33,221 bases of DNA, from the IMG/VR virus record IMGVR_UViG_3300021976_000050, positions 1 to 33,221 of that record. One strand, 5' to 3'. Below are positions 1,639-29,642 of this stretch, piece by piece. The notes under the pieces were generated by a model. It worked only from the letters and a program-made list of their open reading frames with translations, was not told the DNA's origin and searched no databases. Numbering within the stretch: the first letter of the stretch is position 1; the number at the start of each line of letters is the position of its first letter. The translations under genes and the position numbers were made by a program. The DNA comes from a virus.

Positions 1639-4024
1639 TACCTGGCTCCTCGTCGGGGATCTTCGGCGTAGCAGCGCCCAGCCCATGCCGCTGCTTCAGC
1701 TCAGCCTGGCGACGGTTCACGTCTTCCCACGCCGGCTTGACCAGCGGTGCCACGAGGTTGGTGCTCTCGGGGTGGACAGCGAGATTCTGGGCGACGTCGA
1801 TCAGCTGGATGCGCTCCTCGAGCAGGCCCTTGTCCTCCTCCTGGTCGATCTCGCGGTTCTTGAGCGCCGCATCCATCTGCGCGCCGACGATGTCGAGCTT
1901 GTTCTTGACCTCGCTGTTGTCCTGGTCGAGCTTGAGCTTGGCCGCGCCGAGGCCCTGCGTCTGCTTCATGTTCGCGATGTCGGCCTGGACCTTCTCGATC
2001 TCAGCACCCGTCTTCTGCATGTCGCCCTGCGCCTTCATCTTGGCCACTTCGGCGAGCGCCTGCTTGACCGCCAGCTCGCCCTGGTCCTGCTGCTGCTCGG
2101 GCGTCGGCCGGCCCATGCTCTCGGGCGGCGCCATGAACTGCTCGGGATTGCTGTAGCCGATCGCGCGCACCACCATCTTGAAGATCTTGATCGGGTCAGC
2201 CATGCCCGGAGGCGCGCTCGCGGCGGCGCGGCCGAGCGCCTCGACCTTCATCAGGCGCTGGACGTGACTTGAGGTGTTCGGGTCGGCCTGTGGCACGAGA
2301 TTGCAATCGTTGAGCGCCTTGAGGAAGGTTTCCTCGTCCCATTGCTTCGCCGGCTTGCGGTTCTGCTGCCAGAAGCTCTCGGGGTGCTCCTTGAAGCACT
2401 TGGCAAGCAGCTGCAGTTCGCGCGCCTGCGCACTATGTCCGCGTTTGTGGGTGGCCGCCAGGATCTGCTGGGCCTGCTCAATCAACGCCAGGGTCGTGCC
2501 GACCGGCGCATTCTGCCGACCCTCGCCAACCGGTGTCTCGGCCGTGCTGCCGGCACGCTGCGCCTGCTGCACGATGTCCTGGGTGAGCGACAGCATCGCC
2601 GGCATGCCTTGGCTGGTGTAGGGCAGCGGCGCCACGACCTGATCGATCGGCATGCCGCTGGTTTCGATCTGCACGAAGCTACCCGGCGCAACCCGCTGTA
2701 TGTTGCTGTTCTGCCGCGACGCAGATTTCGAGATCAATCCACCCGGAAAGTTCGAAAACATGCCGTTGTCGAGCATAATGCGCCACGCCGCGGTCACCGC
2801 GTTGGTCGCGTTGCCCAGAATATGCAGCAAGCCGATCGGGTAGTAGCCAAAACCCGGGACGAACACGTAGTCGACGAAGGTATCGCGCCGCACCGGCAAC
2901 TTTTCGGTGTCCTGGTCGTAATCCCGCACCACGGCGAGGACCTGGCGGCTGCTCAAATCCATCGTTACCCGGTAGGGCACTTCCAGGCCGGACGGCTTGC
3001 CCTTCCACTTGTGCTCGAAACCCTTGATATCGGCTTCGCAGTAGCATTCGTAGACCTCGCGGTCGCGATCGTCCGGGTTCATCGTGTTCGGCGCGATGCC
3101 CTGCTGCTCTTTTTCCTCGTTCTTGAGCGCGTCGCTCTTCGGATCGTTCGGCGTGCCGAGCTGAACGTCGAGATAGACGTCGAGAAGCTGCATCCGGCGC
3201 ATGATCGACGGGGTCATCATGATGCGGTGCGTCACCCGCTTGGCATTGGCGAGCGATGTGGCGTTGTTGTTGACGATCAGGTCGTCGGCATCGACGTATT
3301 CGCTGACAGGACGGTTGTAAAGCGGGCTGAAATACACTTTTTTGTACGCAAGACCGCCAAACACCCACTTGAGCAGCAGCCGGTCGGTATCGGGGTAGTA
3401 ATTCTTGTCGGTGACCGTCAGGAAGTGGTTGAAATCCTTCTCCAGGCAGTCGGCAAGCTCGTCCTCGTCGCTGGTCGGGTTGTTGTCGTCATCCCTGATC
3501 TTGACCGGGCCGTCGGTTGGCAGGAACTCGCCCCGCGCATTGGCCTGCGCGCGCAGCACAGCCTCTAACATGAGCGGATGACGGACCCTGGAGGTGCCCT
3601 CGACCGCCGCGCCGTCGGCGCTGTCGCCGGTATCCTGGGTCTCGATCTTGAGGCCCAGCATTTTGAGGCCTTCGGTACGCTGGTCGATCCAGTCGGTGCG
3701 GCTGGTGATGTCGTCCTCGATGCCACGTAGCAAGCGTTCGGCGATGATCCCGAGCTGCATCTGGTCGATCTTCTTGGCGAGGTTATCGAACCAGCCCGGC
3801 GGATTGTCGTCCTGGTCGTCGGCGCCCTCGATCGGGCTGCCGTCCATGCTGATGGTGATGCTGCCGTCGGGATGCTCAATCTTGATGACGTTGCCGCGGC
3901 TGTCGTACTGCTTCTGATCGGGGCTGTCGTCATCGGCGACCCGTACGTCGACCGGCTCGAAGCCCTCCTCTGCAGGCGGGTCCTGGTCGAGACGGATGTT
4001 GGGTGACAGGCCTGTGCCGGACAT
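1631..4024 (-). CDS. Portal protein (P22-like)
   Basis: This 797-residue protein should form the dodecameric ring at the unique capsid vertex through which DNA is packaged and ejected. Length suits P22-type portals. The N-terminal 100 residues are acidic. A typical block RVRHPLMLEAVLRAQANARG (about 145) is followed by the clip/wing region with DTFVDYVFVPGFGYYPIGLL (about 390). The last 150 residues are Gln/Lys/Glu-rich and helical (EEKEQQ, AEVAKMKAQGDMQKTGAEIE), as in the barrel or coiled-coil tail of this family. The ATG at 4024 overlaps the upstream stop as TAATG and has no clear Shine-Dalgarno, so translation is probably coupled. It follows the large terminase after two small ORFs, the usual terminase-portal order. 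Assigned by sequence pattern and position. Confidence 0.9.
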   Translation of the reverse strand: MSGTGLSPNIRLDQDPPAEEGFEPVDVRVADDDSPDQKQYDSRGNVIKIEHPDGSITISMDGSPIEGADDQDDNPPGWFDNLAKKIDQMQLGIIAERLLRGIEDDITSRTDWIDQRTEGLKMLGLKIETQDTGDSADGAAVEGTSRVRHPLMLEAVLRAQANARGEFLPTDGPVKIRDDDNNPTSDEDELADCLEKDFNHFLTVTDKNYYPDTDRLLLKWVFGGLAYKKVYFSPLYNRPVSEYVDADDLIVNNNATSLANAKRVTHRIMMTPSIMRRMQLLDVYLDVQLGTPNDPKSDALKNEEKEQQGIAPNTMNPDDRDREVYECYCEADIKGFEHKWKGKPSGLEVPYRVTMDLSSRQVLAVVRDYDQDTEKLPVRRDTFVDYVFVPGFGYYPIGLLHILGNATNAVTAAWRIMLDNGMFSNFPGGLISKSASRQNSNIQRVAPGSFVQIETSGMPIDQVVAPLPYTSQGMPAMLSLTQDIVQQAQRAGSTAETPVGEGRQNAPVGTTLALIEQAQQILAATHKRGHSAQARELQLLAKCFKEHPESFWQQNRKPAKQWDEETFLKALNDCNLVPQADPNTSSHVQRLMKVEALGRAAASAPPGMADPIKIFKMVVRAIGYSNPEQFMAPPESMGRPTPEQQQDQGELAVKQALAEVAKMKAQGDMQKTGAEIEKVQADIANMKQTQGLGAAKLKLDQDNSEVKNKLDIVGAQMDAALKNREIDQEEDKGLLEERIQLIDVAQNLAVHPESTNLVAPLVKPAWEDVNRRQAELKQRHGLGAATPKIPDEEPGSE

Positions 4025-4463: not shown

Positions 4464-6178
4464 GCTGGATACAACCGCTTCTGCGGCCGCCCTCTGTGTT
4501 GCATGCCCTCGGTGACGTCCGAGGTGATCTCGGTCGTGCGTTGGAGCATGCCGGTGTCGCGTAAATATTTCAATGCCATCGACGTAGTGTCGACGTACTC
4601 ATCGTGCTTGGCGTTCGGGAAAGTTCCATTTTGCGTAATGACGCCGTCGGCCCATTTGCGGTCCGGCGCGAAGATCATGCCGTCCTCGAACAGCGGCTGG
4701 ACGCTGTAGAGCCGCGCCAGCTTGCTTACGTTCTTGGGGTCGATCAGCTGGATGGCGAAGCTGTGTCGCGGGCGACGCGAGGTGCGCACCTTGCCAGTCT
4801 CCTTGTCGGTATACTTGAAATCGGTGGTCGACAGCAGCCGGCGCATTTCCTGCGCTACGCTGTGCCCCGAAGCCTTGGCCTCGATCAGGATCTTGTCGAC
4901 CTCGTGATCCTGGCACTCGATGCCGACCAGGTTCACCAGGTCGTTCAGCTCGAGCCGATCGGTCCAGGCGTGCGCCAGCATCACGCGTGTGCTGGTCTCG
5001 GTGTAGACGCGCATGGTGTCCTCCATGCTGACCTTGATGTCCTGTGCGATCACATCGCCGTTGAACACGCCCCAGATCGTGAGGCCTGACGGATCGTTCA
5101 TCGTGTCCTCGGTATAGGCCGTGTCGAGAGACGCGAGCACGTAGCTGAACGGCGGGAACGCCGCTGCCTTGAGGATGTGTCCAGCCTTGTCCTTGGGCTC
5201 TCCTTCGGGCGGCCACAGCTGCCACCAGTCGCGCTTGATGATGCCGCCGCCGGCCGGCTCGGGCCTCTGCTGCAGCTGACCCGCGGCTTTCCACTTGCCT
5301 AGCCGCTTCTCGAGCGAGCGGATCTCGGCGTGCCCGAACCGTTCGGGCCAAAGCAACTGGCCTTCCTTCGTGCGCGGATCGGTCCAGCCGATCGGCGTGC
5401 TGAACGCGCGCGCCGGCTCGTATTCCATCGGCAGCATCAGGTGAACCCAATCATCTCCTTCGTTCGTCAGGATGTGCCCGCTGAGATCGCTCTCGCCAAG
5501 ACGCTGCTGGATGACGATGAACGCGCCGGTCTTGGGATCGTTTAGGCGCGTGCCCATCGTGCCGTCCCACCAATCCTCGTTGGTGCTCTTGATGGTTGCA
5601 TCGGACAGCACTTCATCGGCCGCATTCGGATCGTCGACGATGATGATGTTGCCACCCTCGCCGGTGACGCCCGATCCGATCGAGGTAATCAGACGCTCAC
5701 CGCCGCGAGTGTTCTGGAAGCGTATCTTCTGGTCCTGCTCATTGGTGATCTGGACACGATCGCCCCACAGCCGTTGATACCATGTGCTCTTGATCAACCG
5801 CCGGCACTTCACGCTGTCACGCAGGGACAGGTTGAAGCCGTAGGACGCGTGCAGGAACGGCACGGTCGGTCCGCTGGTCGGGCTGTCGTGGCTCTGCGTC
5901 CAGACCCACGCGGGGAACGCCACGCTGCACAGGCTGGATTTCAGGCATCTTGGCGGGATGTTGATCAGCAGCCTGCGGATCTCGCCGTCAGCCACCGCCT
6001 CGAGGTGCTCGGCAAGTGCGTCCAGCACCCAGCCCGGCTTGAATGGCGCCGGATCTATGAAGCGCCATGCGTGCATCAGGAACGTCGCCAGGCTCTCTTC
6101 GCAATCGAAGCGGTCAAGCTCCTTCAGATGCCAGTCGACATCGATGCGCTTGCCTTCCCAGAGGATGGTGTCAGGCAT
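4460..6178 (-). CDS. terL: Terminase large subunit (packaging ATPase/nuclease)
   Basis: This 572-residue motor protein cuts concatemeric phage DNA and pumps it through the portal. The ATPase half shows a degenerate Walker A (LLINIPPRCLKSS, about 72) and a Walker B-like strand GGNIIIVDDPN (about 180). An arginine-rich coupling segment follows, with LQQRPEPAGGGIIKRDWW (about 300). The RNase H-like nuclease half has LASLDTAYTED (about 347), an acidic strand DKILIEAKASG (about 430) and a final KHDEYVDTTSMALKYL. I chose the ATG at 6178 (MPDTILWEG) over an alternative start 30 codons upstream because that extension is low-complexity Arg/Ser and overlaps the preceding gene. A weak AAGAG lies upstream. 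The usual Walker A lysine-glycine is replaced by CLKSS, acceptable in this divergent family. Confidence 0.95.
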   Translation of the reverse strand: MPDTILWEGKRIDVDWHLKELDRFDCEESLATFLMHAWRFIDPAPFKPGWVLDALAEHLEAVADGEIRRLLINIPPRCLKSSLCSVAFPAWVWTQSHDSPTSGPTVPFLHASYGFNLSLRDSVKCRRLIKSTWYQRLWGDRVQITNEQDQKIRFQNTRGGERLITSIGSGVTGEGGNIIIVDDPNAADEVLSDATIKSTNEDWWDGTMGTRLNDPKTGAFIVIQQRLGESDLSGHILTNEGDDWVHLMLPMEYEPARAFSTPIGWTDPRTKEGQLLWPERFGHAEIRSLEKRLGKWKAAGQLQQRPEPAGGGIIKRDWWQLWPPEGEPKDKAGHILKAAAFPPFSYVLASLDTAYTEDTMNDPSGLTIWGVFNGDVIAQDIKVSMEDTMRVYTETSTRVMLAHAWTDRLELNDLVNLVGIECQDHEVDKILIEAKASGHSVAQEMRRLLSTTDFKYTDKETGKVRTSRRPRHSFAIQLIDPKNVSKLARLYSVQPLFEDGMIFAPDRKWADGVITQNGTFPNAKHDEYVDTTSMALKYLRDTGMLQRTTEITSDVTEGMQHRGRPQKRLYPA

Positions 6179-6356
6179 CGCGGCTCTTGATCTCGACGCA
6201 GCGTGTGCGTGGTTGCGCGTAGCCGTGTGCCCGGGCGTCTTGCTCGACCCGCGGCCGGTCACGCTCACAAGCCTGCAAGTCGGGGTAGGCGAGCGCCTGC
6301 CAGGAGCCGCCCGGCCAGAAGCCGCCAGTCGTGATGAGGAAAAGAAGCGCGGTCAT
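6171..6356 (-). CDS. Small secreted or membrane-anchored protein
   Basis: This encodes 61 residues from the ATG at 6356, preceded by a good GGCGAGGGA ribosome-binding site and overlapping the previous gene as ATGA. The hydrophobic start MTALLFLITTGGFWPGG looks like a signal peptide or single anchor. The rest has two cysteines (DLQACERD and TRCVEI), suggesting a small exported disulfide-bonded domain. Similar short export-signal proteins occur in many phages without known function. An envelope role such as superinfection exclusion is possible but unsupported. The longer alternative start adds Arg-rich out-of-character sequence and was rejected. Confidence 0.7.
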   Translation of the reverse strand: MTALLFLITTGGFWPGGSWQALAYPDLQACERDRPRVEQDARAHGYAQPRTRCVEIKSRDA

Positions 6357-6547
6357 TCCCTCGCCTTTCGCAGCACCACCAGAACATCGCTCAAGATAAG
6401 CGCCTGCGCGCAGTATACCTCGTACAGGCTTGCGTCGCGTTTCTTGGCCCCGGGTTTGTGCGCGCGGATGCCCGTGGCGACGCGCGCGTATTCTTTCTCG
6501 ACGATTGAGAGCGCACACTCTATCCCTGGTTTGGTGTCTGTGGTCAT
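6353..6547 (-). CDS. Small hypothetical protein
   Basis: This encodes 64 residues, MTTDTKPGIECALSIVEKEY onward, ending VVLRKARE. It is predicted mostly helical and basic. It overlaps both neighbours by ATGA, placing it in the coupled small-gene string between the terminase subunits. There is no recognisable domain, signal or membrane segment. Function is unknown. Confidence 0.65.
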   Translation of the reverse strand: MTTDTKPGIECALSIVEKEYARVATGIRAHKPGAKKRDASLYEVYCAQALILSDVLVVLRKARE

Positions 6548-6726
6548 TTATCGTTATCCGGCGGTGGTAGTTGCGGCATGGGCGGCATGGGCGGATGTAT
6601 CCCGACGCCCATCGCGCCTACCTGAATGTCCGCCATGAGGATCGCGAACGTGACGATACCCACGACGCCCAGTATCGCCAAGAAGCAAAGCACCGCGAGC
6701 ACGCCAACATCGACTTCGATCGTCAT
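6544..6726 (-). CDS. Small membrane protein with proline-rich tail (paralogue of next upstream gene)
   Basis: This encodes 60 residues from the ATG at 6726, in an ATGA overlap with the upstream mini-gene. A short N-terminus (MTIEVDVG) leads into one long hydrophobic helix (VLAVLCFLAILGVVGIVTFA), then a tail rich in Gly, Met and Pro (HPPMPPMPQLPPPDNDK). A longer reading upstream would start in a different frame from the mini-gene, so it was rejected. The membrane helix matches the preceding 33-residue protein closely, pointing to tandem duplication. Function unknown; small membrane proteins among phage packaging genes can act on the host envelope, but nothing here proves that. Confidence 0.7.
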   Translation of the reverse strand: MTIEVDVGVLAVLCFLAILGVVGIVTFAILMADIQVGAMGVGIHPPMPPMPQLPPPDNDK

Positions 6727-6824
6727 GGCATATTCACGAAAAGAAACACGAACGTGATGATACCGCCGACGCCTATCACAGATAGAAAGCTGAGTATGGC
6801 GAGCACGCGAACATCGACCATCAT
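6723..6824 (-). CDS. 33-residue membrane mini-protein
   Basis: ATG-ATG at 6824/6821 follows a strong AAGGAG site with 8-base spacing. The product is MMVDVRVLAILSFLSVIGVG followed by GIITFVFLFVNMP, essentially one transmembrane helix. It ends in an ATGA overlap with a downstream gene of very similar sequence (VDVxVLAxLxFLxxxGVxGI). The strong ribosome-binding site, perfect coupling and clear paralogy support a real gene despite its size. Function unknown. Confidence 0.7.
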   Translation of the reverse strand: MMVDVRVLAILSFLSVIGVGGIITFVFLFVNMP

Positions 6825-6851
6825 GCAGCGGGCTCCTTAATCGGATGCAGC

Positions 6852-7106
6852 TCAACCATGAACTACCAGCCTCGGACGCATGCCCCGTACGCGCAGCACG
6901 ATGCTGCCGTTGGCGTTGTCCTCGACCTGAAGCGTGCCTTCGGCGGCCGCAGTGATCTCCTCGGCGGTCAACGCCAGCTGATCGAGCACGCCGTAGCGCC
7001 GCACCATCACCGCGATCAGCAGGCGCATGGTGTCGATCGTCTGCTGCATCGCCTGGACCTTGGAACTAAGCTTCAGAGCGACGACGGTGCCTTTGGGGGC
7101 TTTCAT
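6852..7106 (-). CDS. Small hypothetical protein
   Basis: This encodes 84 residues, MKAPKGTVVALKLSSKVQAM onward. A strong GAGGAGG site lies upstream of the ATG. The N-terminal half looks helical (VQAMQQTIDTMRLLIAVMVR); the C-terminal half looks like beta strands ending LRVRGMRPRLVVHG. No signal or metal site is visible. It is part of the minus-strand string between the terminase genes. Function unknown. Confidence 0.7.
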   Translation of the reverse strand: MKAPKGTVVALKLSSKVQAMQQTIDTMRLLIAVMVRRYGVLDQLALTAEEITAAAEGTLQVEDNANGSIVLRVRGMRPRLVVHG

Positions 7107-7162
7107 ATTGCATCCTCCTCGATGCGGTATCCGCGCGCCGATCAGGCGCGCGGATCTCAGTG

Positions 7163-7606
7163 CTACTTCTTGTGGCTGTGGCTCGCCTTGCTCTCGTGCT
7201 TGAGATCGGCGTGGCTCGGACCTTTGGTCGAGGCGACGCCGAGCTTGGACTTCTCAATCTCCATCTCGGCGATCGTCTTTTCGTGCGCGTCGATCTGCTT
7301 GTTCGCTTCGGCCAGCGCCTTCATCGCGGCATCACGATCCTTGATCGCTTCATCGATAGTTGTCTTGGTCCCGGCCTTATGCGCCTCAAGCTCCTTGCGC
7401 GCCGCGTCGCGATCGTCGAGCGCCTTGTCGACATGGCTCGTCAGGTTCTTGATCTTGACATCGTGTTCGGCCGTGCCGGCAGTTGCCGCTTCGGCGACCG
7501 TCGCCAGGTCGTGCGCCAGCTCCTGCTGGTGCGGCGCAGCACCGTCGATCAATGTCTTAGCGTGCAGCGCCACGCGAGTGGCCGCAGATCCAACTTCTTC
7601 ACTCAT
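7163..7606 (-). CDS. Coiled-coil protein
   Basis: This encodes 147 residues from the ATG at 7606 (MSEEVGSAATRVALHAKTL), with GAGGA upstream; the 48-codon upstream extension is out of character and was rejected. From about residue 45 to 125 it is a heptad-like charged helix (LDDRDAARKELEAHKAG, IKDRDAAMKALAEANKQIDA, EKTIAEMEIEKSKL). It ends in a His/Lys/Ser-rich tail (HADLKHESKASHSHKK). Scaffold, virion-internal or DNA-contacting roles fit such a shape, but no family is recognised. The lysine and histidine tail could bind DNA or metal; this is speculative. Confidence 0.75.
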   Translation of the reverse strand: MSEEVGSAATRVALHAKTLIDGAAPHQQELAHDLATVAEAATAGTAEHDVKIKNLTSHVDKALDDRDAARKELEAHKAGTKTTIDEAIKDRDAAMKALAEANKQIDAHEKTIAEMEIEKSKLGVASTKGPSHADLKHESKASHSHKK

Positions 7607-7628
7607 GGTCGTATCCTCGATGGGGTTG

Positions 7629-7832
7629 TCAGGCAGGGCTGAAATGACGCTCGAGCTTATGCTCTTCGAGATAACCGCGCCAGTCCGGTATCGTTGCACG
7701 GGCGCGATCGGCCGCCAGCAGCTTGGCGAACAGGCCGAGCAGCATGGCAAGCTCGAACGGCGTGATGTCGGCCCGCGGCGTGAAATGCTGCTGGCTCTCG
7801 TCGGGCAGGGTCAGGAGAAGGGGCTCGATCAT
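7629..7832 (-). CDS. Small conserved phage protein
   Basis: This encodes 67 residues, MIEPLLLTLPDESQQHFTPR onward, ending EEHKLERHFSPA. It overlaps the upstream stop as ATGA. The pattern of a beta-type N-terminus, the block PFELAMLLGLFAKLL and a C-terminal HFSPA resembles short phage proteins of unknown function often found near packaging genes. It is soluble with no cysteines. Function unknown. Confidence 0.7.
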   Translation of the reverse strand: MIEPLLLTLPDESQQHFTPRADITPFELAMLLGLFAKLLAADRARATIPDWRGYLEEHKLERHFSPA

Positions 7833-8125
7833 GTGGCGCTCGGCGGCAAGAGTTCGAACTTGACGCAGCCCTCCATAATCGCTGCGTCAATCACATCCTT
7901 GGCTTCCTGCAGGCTATTCGTCTCGTACCGCCGCCGCATAGTTGGTGGCGATAACCACGCATACACAATCCAAACCGGTTTCGGCTGCGCGTCGAGCCAC
8001 TTCTGCGCGGCGTCAGCGAGCAAGGTATAGCTCCGAACCATGGTTGGGTTCGCGTAGGCACCGACACGCCACTTCTCGATCATATCGCGCGCCCATTCAA
8101 TCGCACCCTTCAGATCCTGGCTCAT
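7829..8125 (-). CDS. Hypothetical protein
   Basis: This encodes 98 residues from the ATG at 8125 (MSQDLKGAIEWARDMIEKWR). AGGAG lies upstream and there is an ATGA overlap with the previous stop. A 12-codon extension in the same frame was rejected because it bypasses that ribosome-binding site. The N-terminal half is helical; the C-terminal half (PVWIVYAWLSPPTMRRRYET) looks like beta strands. Function unknown. Confidence 0.7.
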   Translation of the reverse strand: MSQDLKGAIEWARDMIEKWRVGAYANPTMVRSYTLLADAAQKWLDAQPKPVWIVYAWLSPPTMRRRYETNSLQEAKDVIDAAIMEGCVKFELLPPSAT

Positions 8126-24962: not shown

Positions 24963-25820
24963 ATGACTGACAACGCAATCGCCCTCTTCAAGGGTGCCGG
25001 ACTGCCTGCGGCTGATGTAGCGCAGTTCAAGAAGGCCCTCTTCACCGCCAGCCAGGTCATCCAGGTTGCCGGCGGCACGCCTTTCCTGAAGATGCTCAAG
25101 CAGGACGGCACCTGGGTCTATGGCGCCAACGAGACCGAGGTGCAGGAAGGCTCGCAGTGGGCGATCAACCCGCTGTCGCTAAAGACCGGTTACGTCTGCT
25201 GGAATCCCAAGGGCGGCAAGCCGCTCGGCCAGCAGGTGCGTTCGATCTTCCAGTCGCCACCGCTGATGCTGACCGACATGCCGGATCTCGACGCGCCTTG
25301 GTCCGAGACCATCTCGCTCGAGCTACAGTGCCTCAACGGCGAGGATAAAGGCACCGCGGTCGAGTACACGGGCAACTCCTACGGCTGCAAGAAGCTCTTT
25401 AGTGGCCTTGTCGCGGCGCTGCAGAAGCAGCTCGATGTCGACGCGGCCAAGGTGGTGCCGATCGTCAGCATGACGAATGACAGCTACAAGCACCCCGTGT
25501 ACGGCCTGACCTTCAATCCGATCTTCGAGATCGTTGGCTGGATGTCGATGGGCGGTCCGGAGGCGGCGACGCCGCCCGCGGAGCCGCCCGCACCGAAGGC
25601 TGAACCCGAGGCACCCAAGCGCCGTGGACGGACGCCGCTGACGGCGGTGCCGACGGTGCCGGCTGAAGCTGAGTCCGCGCAGAGCACGGTCGCCGAACGC
25701 GTCGCTGAGGCAGCAGAGCAGGAGCGGACGCGCGTGGCGGCCGAGCAAGCCGAACAGGCGGCCGCGCCGGCTGTCGATCAGCCCGTGCAGCGTCGTCGTC
25801 GGCGCGTCGCGACGGTCTGA
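24963..25820 (+). CDS. Putative ssDNA-binding or replication-accessory protein
   Basis: This encodes 285 residues, MTDNAIALFKGAGLPAADVA onward. Residues 1-200 look globular (GGTPFLKMLKQDGTWVYGAN, VQEGSQWAINPLSLKTGYVC, NDSYKHPVYGLTFNPIFEIV), resembling phage proteins that follow DUF2800 nucleases and are thought to bind ssDNA. Residues 200-285 are Ala/Pro/Glu-rich and end in QRRRRRVATV. This is the reverse of the acidic tail of classical SSB. The pairing with the nuclease suggests an annealing or SSB role, inferred from context only. Confidence 0.65.
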   Translation: MTDNAIALFKGAGLPAADVAQFKKALFTASQVIQVAGGTPFLKMLKQDGTWVYGANETEVQEGSQWAINPLSLKTGYVCWNPKGGKPLGQQVRSIFQSPPLMLTDMPDLDAPWSETISLELQCLNGEDKGTAVEYTGNSYGCKKLFSGLVAALQKQLDVDAAKVVPIVSMTNDSYKHPVYGLTFNPIFEIVGWMSMGGPEAATPPAEPPAPKAEPEAPKRRGRTPLTAVPTVPAEAESAQSTVAERVAEAAEQERTRVAAEQAEQAAAPAVDQPVQRRRRRVATV

Positions 25821-25822
25821 TC

Positions 25823-26023
25823 GTGAAGACCGAAGCCGCGCCACGGAACACCAAGCGACCGGGCGACAAGCTCGGCGAGCTGAATGGTGATCCGCGCGCG
25901 CTTTGCTACGAAGCTATGATGGACCGCGAAACTACGCGACGCATCGTAGAACGGATGCACGGGCCGGCTAGCTCGCCGACCTACGTCCGTGAGGACGATC
26001 CGCCAAAGAGCGCCGCGAGGTAG
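25823..26023 (+). CDS. Small hypothetical protein
   Basis: A GTG at 25823 starts three bases after the previous stop and gives 66 residues (MKTEAAPRNTKRPGDKLGEL). It is charged and helical in the middle (AMMDRETTRRIVERMHG). No strong ribosome-binding site is present. Similar short ORFs occur at this position in related-looking phages, but I cannot name a family. Confidence 0.55.
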   Translation: MKTEAAPRNTKRPGDKLGELNGDPRALCYEAMMDRETTRRIVERMHGPASSPTYVREDDPPKSAAR

Positions 26024-26050
26024 GCCCCTCACTTCAACGCGCTTTTCGCG

Positions 26051-26089
26051 CCGCCGCTCTCCTGCCTTCCCCCGGCAGGAGGGCGGCGG
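26051..26089. terminator. Long GC-rich hairpin, possible terminator
   Basis: CCGCCGCTCTCCTGCC (26051-26066) pairs with GGCAGGAGGGCGGCGG (26074-26089) over 16 positions with one G-U wobble and a seven-base loop (TTCCCCC). It is followed by TGCACCCTTT, a weak T-tract at best. It lies between the small gene ending at 26023 and the zinc-ribbon gene, so it could attenuate polymerase-operon transcription. Confidence 0.55.
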
Positions 26090-26120
26090 TGCACCCTTTC
26101 ACCGGTCCGAGGAGGGATCG

Positions 26121-26318
26121 ATGACTAAGCCAATTCCGATATTACTGACGTGTCCCAGTTGCGGCGCGCGGCACATCGATAGGGGGCTGTTCGCCACGAA
26201 ACCGCACCACACGCATGCGTGTCAGGCGTGCGGCATGTGCTGGCGCCCGGCTATTGTGTCGACAGTCGGCGTGCAGTTCCTTCCTGGTTTCCGAGATGAC
26301 GATGCCGCGCGTCTGTAA
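26121..26318 (+). CDS. Conserved phage zinc-ribbon protein
   Basis: This encodes 65 residues, MTKPIPILLTCPSCGARHID onward, with GAGGAGG eight bases upstream. Two CxxC knuckles (CPSCG and CQACGMCW) frame RGLFATKPHHTHA, and it ends VGVQFLPGFRDDD. I recognise this pattern as a widespread small phage zinc ribbon. The ligands are complete. The function is unknown; it usually lies near replication genes, as here just before DNA polymerase. Confidence 0.85.
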   Translation: MTKPIPILLTCPSCGARHIDRGLFATKPHHTHACQACGMCWRPAIVSTVGVQFLPGFRDDDAARL

Positions 26319-26880
26319 TTGGGATGTGGAATCTCGTGCCACGGTCGACCTGACCGTGGTGGGCGCGCTAGAGCGCTGGCTCCCTGTCGTGGGCCGTCCC
26401 GGTTACGATGTTAGCGACCAGGGTCGCGTGCGTAGTAATGACCGAACTGTGCAAGCAGTCGCTAACATCGTATATACCAGTTATAGAAAAGGACGCTTTC
26501 TGAAATCATGGCCCGATAGCACGGGTCATTTAGTAGTTGGTGTTGGCAGCCGGGTACGCCGCCACATTCACGTATTGGTTCTACACGCTTTCTGCGGACC
26601 GCCGCCGGCGCCAAAAATGCAAGCGCGGCATCGTAACGGCAATCCTGCAGATAACAAATTAACCAATTTAGAATGGTCAACAAAAAGCAGAAACCATCAA
26701 GATATAAAACACCACGCCGGACAGCGAAATTATAAATTGAATGGTAATCAAGTTGCGGAAATAAAACGCGCATTACTTACCGGTAAATCAGGTAAATTGT
26801 TGGCGATTCAATACGGCGTCAGCGGCCCGACAATATCAGCCATTAAACATAACCGATTGCATACAGATGTTGAAATATGA
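26296..26880 (+). CDS. HNH homing endonuclease with polymerase-like N-terminus
   Basis: This encodes 194 residues from the ATG at 26296. The first 20 residues (CNWDVESRATVDLTVVG, about 6-22) mimic the start of the next gene's DNA polymerase (LDFETRATVDLTIVG). Then come a NUMOD4-like block (ALERWLPVVGRPGYDVSDQG, RVRSN), the HNH core (HIHVLVLHAFCG, MQARHRNGNPADNKLTNLEW, STKSRNHQD) and a C-terminal HTH (GKSGKLLAIQYGVSGPTISA). It overlaps the zinc-ribbon gene by 23 bases and polymerase by ATGA. Base use in the second half is much more AT-rich than its neighbours, indicating recent transfer. Cleaves specific DNA to spread its own gene. Confidence 0.85.
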   Translation: MTMPRVCNWDVESRATVDLTVVGALERWLPVVGRPGYDVSDQGRVRSNDRTVQAVANIVYTSYRKGRFLKSWPDSTGHLVVGVGSRVRRHIHVLVLHAFCGPPPAPKMQARHRNGNPADNKLTNLEWSTKSRNHQDIKHHAGQRNYKLNGNQVAEIKRALLTGKSGKLLAIQYGVSGPTISAIKHNRLHTDVEI

Positions 26881-28943
26881 CCGTCTTGCATCTCGACTTC
26901 GAAACCCGCGCGACGGTCGACCTGACGATCGTCGGCGCACATATTTATGCCGCGCATCCCGATACGCGCGTTCTGTGCGCCAGCTACACACTTGACGGTG
27001 CGACCATGAAACGTTGGCGGACATGGGCGGGCGATCCACCGCCGCGCGACCTGATGGCAGCGTTGGCAGATCCCGCGATCGTCATTCATGGCTGGAACCT
27101 TAATTTCGAGCGCTTGATTTTGCGCGACGTGCTACGCCGCGAAGTACCGACCGAACGCTTCAGGTGTGTCATGGCCCGCGCGCGTAGCATGGCGTTGCCG
27201 GGCAAGCTCGAGCTGTGCGCCAGGGCGCTGCAGATGCCGGTGCAGAAGTCCGACAACAGCATCATGATGAAATGGTGCAAGCCGCTGAAGGACGGTACTT
27301 GGGCCGACGACCCCAAGGAGTACGAACAGCTGCTCGACTACTGCGATGTCGACGTGCTGACCGAGATCGGCATTGGCGGCCTGCTGCGCGAGCTGAGTGA
27401 CGAAGAGCAGCGCGATTGGGAGATCAACGAGGCAATCAACGATCGCGGCATCCCGGTCGATACCGGACTGGCGCAGGCCGCGCAACGCTACGCCAAGGAC
27501 GAGCTTGACGACATCAAGGCACAGCTCAACGTGCTGACGAAGGGTGTGGTGACATCGCCTAAGCAGTTCCAGCGGATCAAGGACTGGCTGGCCGAGTGGC
27601 TGCCGCCCGAGCTCAAGAGCTTTGCCGAGCCCGATCCCGAGACAGGAAAGGTAAGCTTCGATGCCGCAGCCCGCGAAGAGCTTCTCGCAGAAGACAACGC
27701 CGACGTGCTGGTTGGCGACGTTCGCGAGTTCGTTGAACTTATCCACGACGGCGGCCGGGCCTCCACCGCCAAGTTTGCCGCCATGCAGGCGCGAGCCGGT
27801 AGTGGCCAACGCGCGAGAGGCGCCTACGTCTTCTACGGCGCTTCGCAAACCGGCAGATACAGTTCTTCTGGAATCCAGGTCCACAATTTCATTCGAGCGG
27901 GCCTTGCGAACATCGAGAACGTTGTCGAGGCTGTGCTGCGCGGCGTGCCCAAAGCGAAGCTTATCGACATCGCCAGCTACAAGCCCGACGGCACATTCGT
28001 TTTCGACAAGAGCGTGGGTGTGCCGATCGCCAAGCCCTACAACGTCCTCACCATCCTTTCCCGGCTCCTCCGACCGTCCATCGTTGCCGACGACGGCAAG
28101 ACCTTGGTCTGGGGAGACTGGTCTTCGATCGAAGCTGTGGTCAATCCTTGGCTGAGCAAGGAGAACAGCGCCAGCGAGCTGCTCGACTACTTCGCGGCTG
28201 GCAAGGATCTCTATCTGCGCCAAGCGGTCATGACCTATGGTCTGCGCAGCGAGGAAGACGTGACGCCCGCGCAGCGCCAAGCCGGCGGCAAGGTCCCCGT
28301 GCTGAGCTTCGGCTTTGGCGGCGGGGCCGGCGCCGCCATACGGATGGCGCGCGCCTACAACGTGGCGATGGACTGGGCGTCAGCCGACCTGCTCAAGGTG
28401 ACATGGCGTCGGTCCAATCCATGGGCTGAGCGCTTTTGGCGCAACCTCGAGATCGCCTACTTCAACGCCGTACGCGAGCCCGGCACGGTGTTCCACGCCG
28501 GCCGCGTGGCCTATCTCATGGCGCAGTCGGTGCTGTGGTGCCTGCTGCCGAGCGGCAAGCTGCTGGCTTACCCCTTCGCCCGGATCGAAACGGTCGAGGG
28601 CCGCTTCGGGCCGCAGGACGTAGTGACCTGCATTAAGGGATCGTTCCGCCCCAAGGCAGGATCGAACTACTGGCCTCGGATGCGCCTATGGGGCGGCATC
28701 ACCGCGGAGAACTGCACACAAGCTGAAGCCGCGTCCCTGCTACGCTGGGCGATCCGCGAGCTCTACGAAAACGGCTGGCCGATCATCGGCCACACGCACG
28801 ACGAGCTGCTGTGCGAGATCGAGGAAGAGGAAGCCGACGAGATGAAGACGGTCATGCACGACATCATGACCAACGGCCCGGCCTGGGCGGCCGGCCTGCC
28901 GTTGCGCGCCGAAGTATCGAATGGATATGTGTATGCGAAATAA
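26877..28943 (+). CDS. polA-like: Family A DNA polymerase with 3'-5' exonuclease
   Basis: This encodes 688 residues. Exonuclease motifs: Exo I LHLDFETRATVDL (about 5), Exo II IHGWNLNFERLIL (about 69), Exo III YCDVDVLTEIG (about 154). Polymerase motifs: A WGDWSSIEAVVNPWL (about 411), B QAGGKVPVLSFGFGGGAGAA (about 466) and C IGHTHDELLCEIEEE (about 632). It replicates the phage genome, working with the primase-helicase. It starts in an ATGA overlap with the HNH gene, so its native ribosome-binding site may have been lost to the insertion. Its last 23 bases overlap a second HNH gene. Confidence 0.95.
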   Translation: MTVLHLDFETRATVDLTIVGAHIYAAHPDTRVLCASYTLDGATMKRWRTWAGDPPPRDLMAALADPAIVIHGWNLNFERLILRDVLRREVPTERFRCVMARARSMALPGKLELCARALQMPVQKSDNSIMMKWCKPLKDGTWADDPKEYEQLLDYCDVDVLTEIGIGGLLRELSDEEQRDWEINEAINDRGIPVDTGLAQAAQRYAKDELDDIKAQLNVLTKGVVTSPKQFQRIKDWLAEWLPPELKSFAEPDPETGKVSFDAAAREELLAEDNADVLVGDVREFVELIHDGGRASTAKFAAMQARAGSGQRARGAYVFYGASQTGRYSSSGIQVHNFIRAGLANIENVVEAVLRGVPKAKLIDIASYKPDGTFVFDKSVGVPIAKPYNVLTILSRLLRPSIVADDGKTLVWGDWSSIEAVVNPWLSKENSASELLDYFAAGKDLYLRQAVMTYGLRSEEDVTPAQRQAGGKVPVLSFGFGGGAGAAIRMARAYNVAMDWASADLLKVTWRRSNPWAERFWRNLEIAYFNAVREPGTVFHAGRVAYLMAQSVLWCLLPSGKLLAYPFARIETVEGRFGPQDVVTCIKGSFRPKAGSNYWPRMRLWGGITAENCTQAEAASLLRWAIRELYENGWPIIGHTHDELLCEIEEEEADEMKTVMHDIMTNGPAWAAGLPLRAEVSNGYVYAK

Positions 28944-29355
28944 TAAACACCCACTATACGCACGATGGTTATCTCTTCGCTCGCGCTGTTATAGTCCGAA
29001 CACGCGTAGTTACATGGATTATGGCGCACGCGGAATCAGTGTTTGTCCTCGGTGGGATAGTTTTGAAAATTTTGTTGCGGATATGGAGCCTACTTTTAAG
29101 CCTGGTTTACGTATAGAACGCAAAAACAACAATGGTGACTACGCGCCTAATAATTGTTGTTGGGCCACACCTAGTGAACAAATGCTTAATACTAGACGTA
29201 CGCACTTCATACAAACACCTTGGGGTTTAAAACCGATAACTGTTGCGGCACAACTTGCCGGAATACCGCGCGGTACACTTAAAATGCGCGTGTATGCCGG
29301 CCGTCCTTATGAACAATTATTTGATCCTGTGCGTAAATTAAACCGCAAAAAGTGA
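28921..29355 (+). CDS. Second HNH-type homing endonuclease
   Basis: This encodes up to 144 residues; ATGs at 28921, 28927 and 28933 are all possible and none has a good ribosome-binding site. The block YARWLSLRSRCYSPNTRSYM, DYGARGISVCPRWDSFENFV, then PGLRIERKNNNGDYAPNNCC and WATPSEQMLNTR is a phage HNH-like endonuclease pattern. A C-terminal HTH-like TVAAQLAGIPRGTLKMRVYA follows. It is strikingly AT-rich (TTTTGAAAATTTTGTTGCGG) against a GC-rich genome, indicating foreign origin. It overlaps the end of the polymerase gene. Confidence 0.8.
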   Translation: MDMCMRNNKHPLYARWLSLRSRCYSPNTRSYMDYGARGISVCPRWDSFENFVADMEPTFKPGLRIERKNNNGDYAPNNCCWATPSEQMLNTRRTHFIQTPWGLKPITVAAQLAGIPRGTLKMRVYAGRPYEQLFDPVRKLNRKK

Positions 29356-29366
29356 GGGAGAACGAC

Positions 29367-29642
29367 ATGGCATACGGCATTCAACTGGTCCATCAGAGCC
29401 CGCACCACGCTCAACACGACAAGACTGCGCCGCTATGGCTGCGCCGTCCCGCACCTGTGCCTGGCGACGAGGTGGAACAGGTACTGGATTGGAGCCTCGT
29501 GCATGTCGGCGCGCTTCGCTTTGCTACGCGCGCCGAAGCGGCGGCAGCGCAGCCTGCACCGTGGACCGTGACAACAAAGGTTGTAGCGCTGCCGTCTCCA
29601 CCCTCCCCCACCATCCTGCAGACCGGAGGAAAGGAATTATGA
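29367..29642 (+). CDS. Hypothetical protein
   Basis: This encodes 91 residues from the ATG at 29367 (MAYGIQLVHQSPHHAQHDKT), with GAGGGAGA upstream; the longer GTG start was rejected. It is rich in Ala, Pro and His with a Pro/Ser end (VVALPSPPSPTILQTGGKEL). GC-rich codon use returns here after the HNH gene. Function unknown. Confidence 0.65.
   Translation: MAYGIQLVHQSPHHAQHDKTAPLWLRRPAPVPGDEVEQVLDWSLVHVGALRFATRAEAAAAQPAPWTVTTKVVALPSPPSPTILQTGGKEL

Follow-up and report, generated by a model that had tools for sequence, protein, structure and literature searches.

An HNH endonuclease gene that appears to have taken over the original start of a phage DNA polymerase gene, followed by a polymerase with a substitute 5' end

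The HNH endonuclease gene that precedes the DNA polymerase gene in a 33,221-base virus record (the window, by which we mean the whole stretch of DNA analysed) appears to begin with the authentic, undegraded start of that polymerase, and the polymerase itself now seems to begin with a substitute drawn from another lineage. Homing genes that lack introns usually insert between genes or divide the gene they enter; the window locus appears to represent a third outcome, the start of the host gene having been rewritten by an invader that keeps the old one. If the HNH gene does hold the old start and the polymerase a replacement, it follows that a selfish gene can be accommodated in an essential one that stays intact, with no intron involved.

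The HNH open reading frame (26296..26880, + strand, 194 aa) consists of a polymerase-derived leader joined to an endonuclease body (26368..26880, +) made up of NUMOD4 (E 1e-6; 29.2 bits, curated cut-off 23.4) and HNH_3 (E 2e-9; 37.5 bits, cut-off 24.8) domains. The G+C content of the body is 48%, against 61% in the window, and residues H92, H112, N120, N124 and N133 are invariant across eight homologues. The likeliest start codon is at 26302, with 26296 as the alternative, and the last four bases of the gene form an ATGA overlap (26877..26880, +) between its stop and the start of the polymerase. The leader is apparently foreign to the HNH family, as judged from the seven aligned homologues, all of which start at the NUMOD4 motif (ExWxPVxGxxGYEVS), where the leader ends, or a few residues earlier. 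These homologues answer the concern that every member of the family might carry such a segment regardless of the polymerase. When the 28-residue leader was compared with phages by tblastn there was no match, no leader resembled the following gene at the seven other HNH loci examined, and a search of viral contigs for the HNH protein returned a single match, to an unrelated free-standing homologue.

A preliminary description of this locus had reported that the HNH gene begins with a copy of the polymerase N-terminus, sharing with it an identical core of DNA, and both observations stand. The leader, MPRVCNWDVESRATVDLTVVGA, aligns with the polymerase start, MTVLHLDFETRATVDLTIVGA, over 19 residues with a score of 63, compared with a maximum of 46 in 20,000 shuffles (Gumbel-extrapolated p about 6e-7) and with 37 for the runner-up segment when all six frames of the window were compared, and 14 bases (ACGGTCGACCTGAC) are identical between the two start copies. 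The same description called the HNH copy degenerate, which comparison with relatives contradicts: this copy matches the intact polymerase starts of three related viruses (L001, L002 and L003) at 17 of 19 residues (89%), whereas the present start of the window polymerase matches them at only 11 of 19 (58%), and L005 at 74%. The captured segment (26302..26367, +) comprises 22 codons, corresponds to codons 1-21/22 of the intact L001-L003 polymerases, and in nucleotides is 84% identical to L003 and 72-75% identical to L001 and L002.

Five related polymerases of 60-75% identity were available from viral contigs (L001-L005), genome contigs having yielded only distant ones, and HNH is absent from the polymerase locus in all five. 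In L001-L004 the polymerase is intact and starts at the same place as the captured segment, with ICNWD(V/L)E...VDLTVVGAY; a DNA pattern for this CNWD-type start matches exactly L001-L004. Because these HNH-less polymerases start in the same manner as the leader, the HNH copy is best regarded as the authentic polymerase start, in agreement with the earlier suggestion that the endonuclease had captured it. The DNA similarity between the window and L001 reaches 26366, breaks at HNH and restarts only at 27138; towards L001-L003 together, left-side similarity ends at 26366-26367, which places the left junction at 26367/26368, directly after the first exonuclease motif, as had been proposed. Taken with the identities of the two starts, this interruption of similarity to L001 indicates that the native start probably resides in HNH and has been substituted in the polymerase itself.

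The polymerase (26877-28943, +) is a family A enzyme of 688 residues by domain search, and is a hybrid of two lineages. Its body (27138..28943, +) is sister to those of L001 and L002, the three being grouped with support of 99/99 over codons 88-688, but codons 1-87 (26877..27137, +) reject the same grouping (AU p 0.00055). The window polymerase shares 78% identity with L001 over codons 88-688 and 54% over codons 1-87, whereas the corresponding values for L005 are 62% and 66%. A breakpoint test places the change of lineage at 27188-27209 (permutation p 0.0002), so the right end of the foreign tract lies between 27138 and about 27209. It would appear, therefore, that HNH and a replacement 5' tract intervene between codon 22 and approximately codon 88-110 of a gene that elsewhere resembles L001, and that the present start, along with some 87-110 codons, derives from a different allelic lineage and was not regained by duplication, the other possibility raised in the preliminary description. 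The nearest relative of the tract is L005, only 66% identical and without a supported clade; joining the two is not rejected (p 0.29). A scan with the tract returned one match, a 46% relative, and viral contigs contained no donor carrying both HNH and the replacement tract. Exchange at this end of the gene is evidently recurrent in the clade, since the L003 polymerase (6001-8040) is itself a mosaic of an L001-like 5' end and an L005-like remainder, with a break near codon 190.

The flanks of the polymerase are also variable. The gene that precedes the polymerase in this clade (24963..25820, +; L001-like, 72% identical in nucleotides) occupies the slot of annotated ssDNA-binding genes in other phages. 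Immediately 5' of the polymerase, the window has a zinc-ribbon ORF (26121-26318), L002 (upstream of 480) and L003 (5267-5998) have unrelated ORFs, and L001, L004 and L005 have no small gene. In relatives the zinc-ribbon gene had been expected to continue directly into the polymerase, but the slot there is either empty or filled by other genes. A second HNH gene, of PHROG 3377 (E 1e-40; 28921..29355, +), starts within the last polymerase codons and overlaps the polymerase stop; it is missing from this position in L001 and L002, and hence the window polymerase has an HNH gene on either side.

A tblastn search with the HNH body joined to the 5' part of the polymerase identified HNH genes in the same slot in three unrelated phage lineages: PV036457, Dulem virus 37 and the Streptococcus prophages Javan389/392. 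In each, the gene lies between an ssDNA-binding-type gene and the polymerase, has its own start, and shares the NUMOD4/HNH_3 domains of the window HNH. HNH-less alleles of the Streptococcus locus occur in Javan385, 140, 135 and 626, among which Javan385 is a close relative of Javan389 and is 96% identical to it up to the polymerase leader. After the leader, Javan389 has HNH and a foreign polymerase 5' tract, and then becomes 93% identical to Javan385 from base 3442 of its sequence (L046). Per 20-codon block, this tract has about 40-80% identity to Javan385 and 78-97% to Javan140, and its end (p 0.0002) falls at about codon 178 by the breakpoint test and about codon 136 by BLAST. Javan389/392 thus seem to provide a parallel independent of the window, with an HNH at the polymerase start, joined to it by an ATGA overlap and next to a polymerase 5' tract of foreign origin, although the Javan389/392 HNH took only the native leader region and no polymerase codons, whereas the window HNH took polymerase codons. 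Capture of codons is seen in one window only. Javan140 has the same type of 5' tract without HNH, so tract and HNH are not always found together. A candidate third case, PV036457 (L044) compared with NatCom_3357 (L053), showed no sharp tract.

We consider it probable, on these comparisons, that the locus arose by intronless homing, in which a co-converted tract gave the polymerase a new start and HNH kept the old one. The donor would have been a free-standing NUMOD4/HNH_3 gene directly before the polymerase of a related phage, its stop overlapping the polymerase ATG, and the direction of transfer would have been from there into the lineage of the window phage. A break in the recipient polymerase near codons 22-90, presumably made by HNH in an allele that lacked it, would have been repaired on the donor template, so that HNH together with codons 1 to about 88-110 of the donor polymerase took the place of native codons 22 to about 88-110. 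At its right end, repair would have stopped in the conserved polymerase sequence RFRCxMARARxMALPGKLEL, and the product would be a hybrid polymerase of full length whose translation starts at the donor ATG. At its left end, native codon 21/22 would have been fused in frame with the beginning of the HNH body, so that the endonuclease would now be translated from what was once the start of the polymerase. In a 48-bp stretch spanning the insertion point, the HNH-adjacent allele departs from L001-L003 at 14-16 positions, and such a recoded tract may be resistant to cutting. Both in the window and in Javan389 the foreign polymerase 5' tract adjoins HNH and may have arrived with it in a single event.

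The transfer could have run in the opposite direction, with a polymerase of the LDFET start resident and a unit of CNWD-type codons 1-22 plus HNH, formed in another phage, landing before it. We regard this as unlikely, yet it retains some weight because the captured codons are nearest in nucleotides to L003 and not to the sister phages; moreover, L003 is evidence that CNWD-type 5' tracts move between lineages, and LDFET-like starts, judging from L005, L016 and L017, are probably ancestral. Against it, the sisters L001 and L002, whose polymerase bodies group with that of the window, are both of the CNWD type, the discordance between the window and L001 ends at about codon 88-110, unlike the L003 break at about codon 190, and in the Streptococcus parallel HNH was imported with a foreign 5' tract. 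A similarly low probability attaches to ordinary modular recombination, which would have swapped the polymerase 5' end while HNH was inserted separately and had no role in the swap. As 5' tracts are also exchanged in L003 and Javan140, which lack HNH, the swap could predate HNH or be independent of it; however, in both HNH-bearing cases that have an HNH-less comparison, the foreign DNA starts exactly at HNH and ends within the polymerase.

That two related starts flank HNH would also follow from local duplication, had the polymerase start been doubled when HNH was inserted and the copies then diverged. This now seems very improbable. Over 57 bp the copies share 68% identity, less than a recent duplication would leave, whereas the 5' copy shares 72-84% with the genes of other phages, and the entire 87-codon tract, well beyond the 21 codons duplicated, belongs to another lineage; tandem duplication is largely refuted by this tract phylogeny. 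Splicing, with HNH housed in a polymerase intron, was considered because HNH genes often occur within phage polymerase introns, I-PfoP3I being an example (PMC3428280). We reject it as having the slightest chance of the readings weighed here: no Rfam intron family is detected in 25800-29500 even at E 5, and the polymerase is complete, with its own start, and needs no splicing. The intron-less character ascribed to the element in the preliminary description is upheld accordingly, and splicing is presumably absent from the locus.

The nearest known case is found in fungal mitochondria, where mobile ORFs insert in atp6, atp9, cox2 and nad3 with a foreign 3' end, forming hybrids whose native end clusters with that of relatives, whereas the inserted end falls elsewhere (PMC3630166). 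Allomyces macrogynus atp6 and Glomus atp6, atp9, cox2 and nad3 resemble the window in combining an endonuclease ORF with a foreign copy of one gene end in an essential gene (PMC3630166), and there too the displaced native end groups with relatives (in the window, at 89% amino acid identity to L001-L003) and the inserted tract rejects that grouping. The fungal genes have had the 3' (C-terminal) end replaced, with the native C-terminus left downstream, whereas in the window phage it is the 5' (N-terminal) end, and, unlike in the fungi, the displaced native end provides the endonuclease with its own start. Within the literature searched, a comparable outcome is known only at that other end of the gene, in fungal mitochondria; our search, of incomplete coverage, returned no report of 5'-end replacement with capture of the old start.

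Among phages, free-standing endonucleases of the T4 type show co-conversion and overlapping starts (PMC2988022). T4-like SegF and MobE share with the window an HNH gene between phage genes, overlapping start and stop codons and an expectation of co-conversion, but T4-type genes sit between intact genes, whereas the window insertion point lies inside ancestral coding sequence and the gene has been mended by a replacement start. MobE in Aeh1 nrdA and MobA in T4 gene 60 are, like the window HNH, intron-free homing genes inside essential coding sequence, but these insertions split the host protein into two polypeptides (PMC2988022); the window polymerase is a single polypeptide of normal length. 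A survey places phage nuclease genes at the boundaries of inter-phage exchange, often near the polymerase (PMC10448857). The window locus supplies a concrete, testable target site, and homing of this kind is one reason that may be offered for mosaicism at the 5' end of the polymerase gene in both phage groups examined. A broader generalization, possible but put forward only tentatively, is that HNH and a recoded, cut-resistant polymerase 5' end move as a single homing unit, free of introns, and thereby exchange the start of an essential gene, with translation of the endonuclease reliant on the original start of the host gene; the piece of target retained beside the HNH start may be an operator, and the window and the Streptococcus prophages would then exemplify, independently of each other, a mechanism general to phages.

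Several annotations encountered in these comparisons deserve mention. In Javan140 (L050, MK448852.1; 1804-2035) the polymerase is annotated as starting approximately 77 codons late, omitting the exchanged 5' tract. In Javan389 (L046, MK448748.1; 2465-2500) the annotated HNH start runs through a hairpin leader common to Javan385, and translation more probably begins at a TTG that follows AGGAGG. Finally, in Escherichia phage BUCT618 (L035, OM735461.1) a NUMOD4/HNH_3 frame (1019-1468, +) lies antisense within an annotated 789-residue terminase, which itself has a weak match to an intein splicing domain, and this may possibly represent an intein with its endonuclease gene on the opposite strand.
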